From positions 671,072-735,071 of the forward strand of contig NZ_KE386495.1 in NCBI RefSeq assembly GCF_000427425.1: a DNA stretch of 64,000 nucleotides, given 5' to 3'. This stretch comes from Caldanaerobius polysaccharolyticus DSM 13641 (lineage in GTDB: Bacteria > Bacillota > Thermoanaerobacteria > Thermoanaerobacterales > Caldanaerobiaceae). Below, piece after piece: positions 27,791 through 30,106 of this stretch; the stretch's first letter is position 1, and the number at the start of each line of letters is the position of its first letter. Position numbers and translations under genes: made by a program. Under the pieces are notes generated by a model. That model did not search any database and was not told the DNA's origin. It saw nothing but the letters and a program-made list of their open reading frames with translations.

Positions 27791-27840
27791 TTTAATCCTC
27801 CTAAAACCTTTCATTAACCATTATACTACTACCACAAAAA

Positions 27841-27878
27841 ATTTAAAAAGGAATGCTTATCTGCATTCCTTTTTAAAT
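27841..27878 (-). terminator. Intrinsic terminator of dapB
   Basis: A nearly perfect 16-bp stem ATTTAAAAAGGAATGC and its complement with loop TTATCT. It overlaps the dapB stop codon, and the minus-strand side continues into T-rich sequence. Confidence 0.85.
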
Positions 27879-28721
27879 TATAGCATAATCTTCCATTAGG
27901 TAATTTTGAAGTACGGTTTTTAAGTTGAGGACATCATCCATATCGTACATGCCTTTTTTACCTGCGATAAACCGTATAGCTTTCTTAGCGCCTTCTGCAA
28001 AGGCCTCTCTACTAAATGATTGATGCGTTAACTCCACCATATCATTTTCTCCGGCAAATATCACTTTATGCACTCCTACTATACCGCCTGCTCTAATTGA
28101 AGAAATCCCTATTTCATTATCCTCGCGTTTGTGTACCATGCTTCTATCGTATATAAAGTTTCTTTCTTTGATTTTTCTAGCCTTTAAAATACTATCGGCA
28201 ATCTTAATTGCGGTACCTGATGGTGAATCTTTCTTATTCCTATGGTGGGCCTCTGAAATTTCCACATCGTAATCAAATAGCAGGCTGGAAACCAATTCAC
28301 TTACAAATTTTACTACATTTACACCCAATGTAATATTTGGAGCCATTACAACTCCTATTTTATATTGCTTAACTATTGATTCTATCCTTTGTTCCTGCGA
28401 TTTTGTAAAACCCGTTGTTCCTATAACCATATTTACTTTATGTTTTGCAAATACCTCCATATTGTGAACGCACGCGTCAGGAGTGGAAAAATCCACCGCC
28501 ACATCAGGTTTATATAATTTCAGATTATCTGATAGTTTATCTGATCCCATAACGAGTATTCCTGTATCTCTTGTATTTAACAGTTCACCAAGGTCTTTAC
28601 CTTCTTTTTCGCTGCCTGGTGAGCATAGCGCCATTACTAATTTTAAATCTTTGGATTTTAATAGATTTTTTGCAATAACTGACCCAGTTTTTCCTAATCC
28701 AACCATACATACCTTTATCAA
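27873..28721 (-). CDS. dapB: 4-hydroxy-tetrahydrodipicolinate reductase
   Basis: Reduces hydroxy-tetrahydrodipicolinate in the diaminopimelate/lysine pathway, feeding cell-wall and, in spore formers, dipicolinate metabolism. The 282-residue protein shows the nucleotide fold start VCMVGLGKTG, IGTTGF, APNITLGVN and the signature EAHHRNKKDSPSGTA with catalytic His and Lys. ATG 28727 sits only about 1 nt from its purine-rich site AAAGGGGG. TTG 28721 gives MIKVCMVG, the usual DapB start, with 7-nt spacing, and is preferred. It is more AT-rich than its neighbours and stands apart from other lysine genes. Upstream is a ~450-nt leader with a c-di-AMP riboswitch. Confidence 0.93.
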   Translation of the reverse strand: MIKVCMVGLGKTGSVIAKNLLKSKDLKLVMALCSPGSEKEGKDLGELLNTRDTGILVMGSDKLSDNLKLYKPDVAVDFSTPDACVHNMEVFAKHKVNMVIGTTGFTKSQEQRIESIVKQYKIGVVMAPNITLGVNVVKFVSELVSSLLFDYDVEISEAHHRNKKDSPSGTAIKIADSILKARKIKERNFIYDRSMVHKREDNEIGISSIRAGGIVGVHKVIFAGENDMVELTHQSFSREAFAEGAKKAIRFIAGKKGMYDMDDVLNLKTVLQNYLMEDYAII

Positions 28722-28727
28722 TATCAT

Positions 28728-28943
28728 ACCCCCTTTAAAATTACTTAATTTTCGCGAAGGTTTCGCGTTATATCGTTATATTTTCAAAGGATTTCCCCTC
28801 GCTTTTGCTCGGTTTTATAAAGGGAATCCTATGAAAACCAAGTTTAGATAGTTATCTTTGTTTTGCTCTTATGCAGAAACCGAGGAACAGAAAACCCCAA
28901 TAGGTGTTATCCTCTAAAGTGCTTTGAAAATATTTTAGAATAG
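28728..28943 (-). other. Long structured leader segment between riboswitch terminator and dapB
   Basis: About 215 nt with no recognisable gene. On the minus strand several inverted repeats are visible: GAGGATAACA with TGTTCCTC (28879-28914), GGATTCCC with GGGGAAATCC (28790-28830), and CGCGAA with TTCGCG (28752-28766) close to the dapB ribosome binding site. A short frame without a start codon ends at a TAA near 28772. It could be extra regulatory RNA or decayed sequence. Confidence 0.4.
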
Positions 28944-28974
28944 CATAAATAAAACCATGGAGTGATCCATGGTT
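28944..28974 (-). terminator. Riboswitch-controlled intrinsic terminator
   Basis: Minus strand: AACCATGGA, loop TCAC, TCCATGGTT, then TTTTATTTAT. It lies 36 nt after the c-di-AMP aptamer, the spacing expected for a transcription-terminating expression platform. Confidence 0.85.
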
Positions 28975-29009
28975 CATTCACCATATAATATCAGATCATC
29001 TCCCTTTCA

Positions 29010-29117
29010 ACGCTTACGAGGTTAGCTGACGGGCTCGGACTGAAAGGTTGCCCTATCCCTTTACGGGAATACGCCCCAAACAATGGTTCCCCCGTTTCCC
29101 TTGCGGAAATTCAGCGT
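29010..29117 (-). promoter_or_regulatory. c-di-AMP riboswitch (ydaO/yuaA class)
   Basis: The minus strand carries the conserved blocks of this class in order: ACGCTGAAT, GGGGGAACCA, TTGGGGCGTAT, a TCCC/GGGA hairpin, TAGGGCAACCTTTC, CCGAGCCCGTCAGCTAACC and TCGTAAGCGT. P1 is ACGCT paired with AGCGT. In this class c-di-AMP binding favours termination, and a terminator follows at 28944-28974. The next gene on this strand is dapB, about 290 nt from the aptamer. Confidence 0.94.
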
Positions 29118-29145
29118 AAATTTATTATTTATTTCAACTCTCATC

Positions 29146-29203
29146 TGACTACAATGATGTCAATCTCTCTTTATAGTATATATCTTTTTGACAACAATGT
29201 CAA
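29146..29203. repeat. Two related inverted repeats around the leader promoter
   Basis: Palindrome TTGACAACAATGTCAA (29188-29203) covers the minus-strand -35. A near copy, TGACTACAATGATGTCAA (29146-29163), lies just downstream of the predicted start point. The shared parts are TGAC, ACAATG and TCAA; the second copy has three extra bases. They look like paired operator sites. Confidence 0.45.
29175..29203 (-). promoter_or_regulatory. Sigma-A promoter of the riboswitch-dapB leader
   Basis: Minus strand TTGACA (29198-29203), 17-nt spacer, TATACT (29175-29180). Start near 29168, about 50 nt before the aptamer. Confidence 0.78.
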
Positions 29204-29226
29204 GTCTAACAGCGTTTGCTTCGCTC

Positions 29227-29255
29227 TTGTTATTGATATTGTGTTTTTCTATAAT
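29227..29255 (+). promoter_or_regulatory. Sigma-A promoter of the alpha/beta hydrolase gene
   Basis: TTGTTA (29227-29232), 17-nt spacer, TATAAT (29250-29255), 44 nt before the start codon. It is back to back with the dapB leader promoter. Confidence 0.65.
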
Positions 29256-29299
29256 TCTATTAAGTGGACTTTTGTCAATATAGAAAGGGGAGAGACGCT

Positions 29300-30106
29300 A
29301 TGGACTGCAAAGGTAAGGAAAGGATAATGCTGTGGGATAATGGCGTACCGGGGGCAATGGGGTTTGAGTTAGAAGATCGTCCTCATCTGGTTCCTTATTT
29401 GATCCACACTGATAGGCCAGTAGGAGCTGTCATCGTTTTTCCAGGGGGAGGATATGTAAAGAGGGCTGAACACGAAGGAGAGCCGGTGGCCAAGTGGATA
29501 AACTCCATAGGCTTACATTCATTTGTTTTAAATTACAGGGTAAGCCCGTATAAATACCCATATATATTAATGGATGCCAAGAGGGCCGTTAGAAAGGTAA
29601 GGTATCATTCAGCTGAGTGGAACATAGATCCCCACAAGATATGCGTGCTGGGCTTTTCCGCAGGAGGGCATCTGGCGTCATCAGTAGGAACTCATTACGA
29701 CTGTGGAGATATAAATGCCGCCGATCCGGTGGAGAGGATAAGTTGCAGACCAGATGCCATGGTGTTATGCTACCCTGTTATAACTTTTGAAGAGCACACC
29801 CATAGGGGCTCTATGGAGGCATTTTTAGGGGAAAATCCTTCGGAGGAATTGAAGAGGTGCTTTTCCAACGAGCTAAAAGTAACGAAAGATACTCCTCCTG
29901 CGTTTATATGGCATACGGCTGATGATCAAGGGGTTCCGGTGGAGAACAGCGTGCTTTTTGCTATGGCCTTGCGCCGCCATAAAGTGCCTTTTGAAATGCA
30001 CATTTATGAAAAAGGGCCTCACGGCATAGGGCTTGCTGAAAATGACCCCTGTGTAGGCACGTGGACAAAGCTGTGCGCTTTGTGGTTAAAAAAACACCTG
30101 GGTTAG
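29300..30106 (+). CDS. Alpha/beta hydrolase, acetyl-esterase-like (BD-FAE family)
   Basis: A 268-residue esterase-type protein with the oxyanion region VFPGGGYVKRAEHEG, the nucleophile elbow GFSAGGH (catalytic Ser), and a late Asp (HTADDQGVPVENS) and His (GPHGIG). Relatives deacetylate xylan or xylo-oligosaccharides; no signal peptide is present, so it is intracellular and may act on imported acetylated oligosaccharides. That use is an inference. AAAGGGGAGAG is spaced before ATG 29300; an in-frame GTG at 29264 has none. It has its own promoter and a hairpin terminator. Confidence 0.86.
   Translation: MDCKGKERIMLWDNGVPGAMGFELEDRPHLVPYLIHTDRPVGAVIVFPGGGYVKRAEHEGEPVAKWINSIGLHSFVLNYRVSPYKYPYILMDAKRAVRKVRYHSAEWNIDPHKICVLGFSAGGHLASSVGTHYDCGDINAADPVERISCRPDAMVLCYPVITFEEHTHRGSMEAFLGENPSEELKRCFSNELKVTKDTPPAFIWHTADDQGVPVENSVLFAMALRRHKVPFEMHIYEKGPHGIGLAENDPCVGTWTKLCALWLKKHLG

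Follow-up and report, generated by a model that had tools for sequence, protein, structure and literature searches.

The window analyzed here, a stretch of 64,000 nt from Caldanaerobius polysaccharolyticus DSM 13641, carries a riboswitch for c-di-AMP, a messenger of salt and turgor state, followed by its own terminator and then by an accessory dapB, a paralogue of the gene for 4-hydroxy-tetrahydrodipicolinate reductase (HTPA reductase). We consider it probable that the riboswitch is an OFF switch controlling this stand-alone, horizontally acquired second DapB, with low c-di-AMP allowing read-through and the production of extra enzyme. The original prediction from the sequence could not say whether such a pairing had been reported; c-di-AMP riboswitches ahead of dapB are in fact already published (PMC9337991), and the case is not unique. 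What is new here is the paralogue status of the gene, the tie of its whole clade with the abl genes, and the exception that this abl-less genome represents.

The riboswitch leader and the gap to dapB

The proposal of a ydaO/yuaA-class riboswitch on the minus strand, with a consensus promoter ahead of it, a terminator behind it and dapB as the next gene, was borne out. Using Rfam cmscan, the c-di-AMP model RF00379 matched 28996-29126 (-) over its full length (model positions 1-134) with 103.6 bits, far over the gathering score of 38 bits (E 1.5e-23 for the 64-kb window), and it was the sole riboswitch within the window. The span first proposed for the element, 29010-29203, covers the promoter and almost all of the aptamer, the Rfam 3′ end lying ~14 nt farther. 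The sigma-70-type promoter, TTGACA-17-TATACT at 29203-29175 (-), agrees with the consensus at 11 of 12 positions and is the top-scoring match within 27-31 kb, where promoter-match counts were not above chance (11 found vs 9.1 expected); transcription is expected to start near 29168. Promoters resembling it precede the aptamer in the related leaders G224, G399, G339, L118, L131, and L117. The terminator scan placed an intrinsic terminator hairpin of 10 pairs, GAACCATGG-ATCACT-CCATGGTTTT, at 28975-28952 (-), followed by a U-rich tract, and related leaders keep a terminator at the equivalent position. A promoter-like site (10/12) at 29227-29255 (+), near the riboswitch promoter, faces a divergent esterase gene at 29264-30106.

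The aptamer includes two helices, P1 (29117-29113 paired with 29014-29010) and a tail helix in which the loop CUUUCA (29046-29041) pairs with the 3′ tail UGAAAG (29009-29004). Across an alignment of 16 leaders, their 11 pairs were formed in 88.5% of cells, nine of the 11 had changed on both sides, and the covariation score was 0.534, whereas shuffles gave 0.238 and sliding no more than 0.27. Directly 3′ of the tail helix, a candidate antiterminator strand at 29003-28980 (-), with GGAG, UGAUCU, and AUGGU segments, is predicted to form a duplex with the terminator's left arm and loop at -17.2 kcal/mol, against -13.0 kcal/mol for the terminator hairpin itself. Equally good complementarity arose in 4 of 300 shuffles of the window's tail, and the predicted placement recurs in most relatives; the statistics reach significance in the window and in some other members but are weak (p 0.1-0.35) in over half of them. 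This layout fits the OFF switches reported in tandem Na+/c-di-AMP systems, in which strands of P1 and of the pseudoknot compete with the left shoulder of the terminator (PMC9337991), and for the kdpFABC c-di-AMP riboswitch of Bacillus thuringiensis, where termination rose from 27% to 63% with c-di-AMP and the c-di-AMP level dropped under K+ limitation (PMC6488665). We infer the antiterminator, the OFF sign, and read-through into dapB.

The gap between terminator and dapB measures ~225 nt, while in most relatives 70-180 nt separate the aptamer end from dapB. About 90 nt of it (28773-28862 (+), approximate limits) is a 5′-terminal relic of an IS1182-like insertion sequence, recognized by aligning dispersed copies, which occur intact or partial in relatives from the same order (L208-L214, with the transposase in L209). 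The relic holds a decayed transposase start, MKTKFR*LSL, directed away from dapB. With its unusual length and the relic inside it, the gap possibly weakens the coupling between riboswitch and gene. No sigma-70-like match of at least 8/12 was found in the gap (28979-28728), and this, along with the direction of the transposase start, makes read-through control of dapB by the riboswitch likely. The Na+ riboswitch RF03071 had no match in 28680-29320 at E values up to 5, and no other Rfam family came near its cut-off in the leader or the gap. Two further candidates were rejected: a second structured element in the gap, with a fold z-score of -1.23 that is not notable, and a conserved stretch considered as part of the leader, which is the IS end.

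A second DapB distinct from the housekeeping enzyme

The gene that follows, at 28727-27873 (-), encodes a DapB-family protein with 256 bits to TIGR00036 (cut-off, 122 bits) and matches to both Pfam domains, PF01113 and PF05173. Its start is more likely the TTG at 28721 than the ATG at 28727, since homologues begin MIRVCLVGLG, giving a protein of 282 aa; a Shine-Dalgarno sequence, AGGGGGT, lies ~7 bases ahead of the TTG. The reading frame is intact and all invariant catalytic and substrate residues of DapB are kept, with the catalytic block HHxxKxD[AS]PSGTA present as HHRNKKDSPSGTA and GTTGF also there. The nucleotide-binding motif is GLGKTG, which retains the Rossmann type, rather than the common GxxGRMG, the usual DapB form and not a strictly defining one. 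The closest solved structures are all DapB, and the protein presumably acts as an HTPA reductase. A terminator-like hairpin at 27840-27879 (-), with 17 pairs of which four are G-C, separates the gene from sfsA.

This gene is an accessory paralogue and not the housekeeping dapB. The genome assembly (three contigs, 96% complete) carries two dapB genes, and the housekeeping copy lies on another contig (G000:C2:429650-430402) in the operon lysine riboswitch-asd-dapA-dapB (L094), whose lysine riboswitch matches RF00168 with 111.5 bits; the window gene is in no such operon. Both loci encode DapB, but the housekeeping copy groups in the tree with dapB of the order relatives whereas the window protein falls in a different clade, the two leaders have different ligands, and the L094 operon is multi-gene. 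The GC3 of the window gene (0.289) is the lowest among the 58 ORFs of at least 150 aa in the window, compared with 0.52 for the canonical dapB, and the gene was not found in the other 23 genomes sampled from the order, the genus mate included, so horizontal acquisition is the natural reading. When positions were compared among the matches listed for near relatives, only the window's own dapB and c-di-AMP riboswitch were close to each other. A second DapA-like gene, considered as an extra dapA near the window, was rejected, as it lies ~446 kb off and scores barely over the cut-off. The original interpretation was right about the type of riboswitch, about the promoter and terminator on either side of it, and about the identity of the next gene as a DapB; it needs revision in that the gene is an accessory copy and a link to dipicolinate is not supported.

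Riboswitch-dapB modules and abl genes in related genomes

The proteins nearest to the window DapB, at 45-52% identity, belong to other families of the phylum and to named genomes picked up with a profile. A c-di-AMP aptamer lies immediately before dapB in the genomes G336, G380 (two copies), G224, G399, and G339 (of which L116 is a duplicate), in a Desulfitobacteriaceae MAG (L113), Pseudobacteroides cellulosolvens (L115), Clostridium weizhouense (L118), and Acetivibrio straminisolvens (L119), and in L117, L120, and L131; in P. cellulosolvens, a Na+ aptamer lies upstream of the c-di-AMP aptamer. With a model built from the leaders, the aptamer preceded 14 of 28 DapBs that form a single clade (SH-aLRT 98) and none of 51 other DapBs. 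This contrast holds for the present sample and should not be taken as an unbiased rate, because part of the set was collected for its resemblance to the window gene and the model itself derives from some of the leaders. On the tree, the aptamer label required 5 changes vs 13.1 in shuffles, and shuffled labels were never equally clustered. An even draw of 399 genomes of the phylum contained the clade in 12, with the switch in six of those 12. The clade is also marked by the motif GxG[RK][TA]G, found in 28/28 of its proteins and in 3/51 DapBs outside it, where the GxxGRMG form prevails (48/51). At least two DapB-family matches were present in each of the 21 genomes checked.

Five Clostridium members of the clade (L114, L121-L124) have no c-di-AMP aptamer upstream. 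DapB paralogues in G339 and G399 (L100 5149-5997 (-) and L101 7494-8342 (-)) have lost HHxxKxDxPSGTA and lack the riboswitch; each adjoins a cysteine-synthase-like gene and perhaps has a new function. In G336 (L104 4053-5741 (+)), riboswitch and dapB lie directly behind genes for an ammonium transporter and a P-II protein.

AblA and AblB convert lysine to N-acetyl-beta-lysine. An operon riboswitch-dapB-ablA-ablB is found in the Desulfitobacteriaceae MAG, P. cellulosolvens, and C. weizhouense, with AblA at 616-633 bits and AblB at 274-279 bits, the AblB frame of P. cellulosolvens being shorter and below the cut-off. These operons share the DapB clade of the window (46-50% identity) and its leader layout, but ablA and ablB are absent from the window's genome. 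In G380, ablA-ablB lies ~3 kb downstream. A c-di-AMP riboswitch also stands ahead of ablA-ablB and a dapB-like gene in G336, of ablA-ablB in C. luticellarii, and of a KamA-like gene in G063 that is below the AblA cut-off and has one stop, while G224 and A. straminisolvens carry the module with no AblA gene. As AblA and AblB use lysine, the dedicated DapB is best read as a supplier of lysine for the osmolyte, which in these kin points to an osmolyte route and not to a wall route. Attachment of c-di-AMP riboswitches has thus recurred in a single DapB clade and with ablA/ablB, and lysine supply for N-acetyl-beta-lysine would most likely be the ancestral job of the module. G336 further encodes very diverged DapB-like proteins (L218 2764-3552 (-) and L222 4270-5058 (-)), one of which is the third gene in its c-di-AMP riboswitch-ablA-ablB operon.

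Tandem Na+/c-di-AMP riboswitches ahead of dapB were reported in 2022 and read by their authors as serving in osmotic stress, with dapB taken as lysine supply and, in the extended data, also as wall supply; the tandem riboswitch of Dehalobacter ablA was tested in vitro (PMC9337991). The riboswitch-dapB locus of the window resembles these tandems in having a c-di-AMP aptamer and terminator immediately before dapB, and it differs in lacking the Na+ riboswitch, in its stand-alone dapB, in its abl-less genome, and in the IS relic in the leader. With the kdpFABC riboswitch of B. thuringiensis (PMC6488665) and the ydaO/kimA riboswitch of B. subtilis, it shares the RF00379 aptamer, an intrinsic terminator, and the expectation of an OFF switch, but its target is a biosynthetic enzyme and not a K+ transporter.

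Possible roles in a genome without abl genes

Neither AblA nor AblB had a match anywhere in the genome (96% complete), and no convincing traces of ablA/ablB were found in the gap or the rest of the window, so the role best supported in kin, osmolyte supply, is inapplicable here. We infer the physiological role of the riboswitch-dapB pair in the following way. At high c-di-AMP, the bound aptamer would hold P1 and the tail helix, the terminator would form, and transcription would end ahead of dapB. A drop in c-di-AMP, as under low K+ or turgor loss, would free the tail to base-pair with the terminator's left arm and loop, leading to read-through. The extra DapB would then turn 4-hydroxy-tetrahydrodipicolinate into tetrahydrodipicolinate without depending on the lysine riboswitch that governs asd-dapA-dapB. 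In relatives, AblA/AblB would carry this product on to N-acetyl-beta-lysine, whereas in this genome it could feed only lysine and meso-diaminopimelate. Against this explanation, DapB alone, not joined under this control by additional aspartokinase or DapA, may bring only a small gain in flux.

The main alternative to a role in the wall is that the gene is a partnerless leftover of an abl-type osmolyte module, having come with or beside a c-di-AMP-controlled N-acetyl-beta-lysine pathway whose ablA/ablB were lost or never arrived, and now being a marginal remnant. The adjacency of ablA-ablB to dapB in kin operons, the absence of both proteins from this genome, the IS debris beside dapB, and the foreign composition of the gene would all agree with such a history, but the reading frame, every invariant DapB residue, the promoter, the aptamer, and the terminator are intact, and G224 and A. 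straminisolvens keep the module with no AblA gene, so we regard a remnant as rather unlikely. It is improbable that the IS relic supplies or carries a promoter of its own and places the second dapB outside riboswitch control: the ~90-nt IS end and the unusual length of the gap would allow for it, but the gap has no adequate sigma-70 match and the transposase start of the relic points the other way.

We also doubt strongly that the paralogue has ceased to be an HTPA reductase and puts its DapB fold to use on a different imine or amino acid. Such a change could be read into the replacement of the usual GxxGRMG by GxG[RK][TA]G throughout the clade (28/28) and into the loss of HHxxKxDxPSGTA in some members (G339 and G399), but the window protein lacks none of the invariant catalytic and substrate residues, reaches 256 bits with TIGR00036, and has only DapB among its nearest solved structures. 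DapB and dipicolinate synthase share the product of DapA, and the original prediction had raised control of dipicolinate for spores. This is very improbable, as a search limited to DpaA, of the candidates DpaA, DpaB, and the alternative route through EtfA, gave no match in the genome and the paralogue is absent from the other members of the order sampled.

Regulation of a second DapB by a c-di-AMP OFF switch remains the preferred explanation. The three other c-di-AMP riboswitches of this genome lie ahead of one LysM/Hydrolase_2 and two NlpC/P60 proteins, all of them wall hydrolases, and this, together with the absence of ablA/ablB, makes a role of the window DapB in wall precursor supply possible. 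As a tentative extension, the second DapB might free the diaminopimelate/lysine branch from lysine repression at low turgor and join the three wall hydrolases in one c-di-AMP regulon; if true, a single messenger would set both the opening of the wall and the supply of its precursors. The genome offers a testable exception in which switch and enzyme are kept, the osmolyte pathway is absent, and a separate dapB is under lysine control, and it could reveal whether the supply of wall precursors is set by c-di-AMP as well. One diadenylate cyclase gene is present in the genome.
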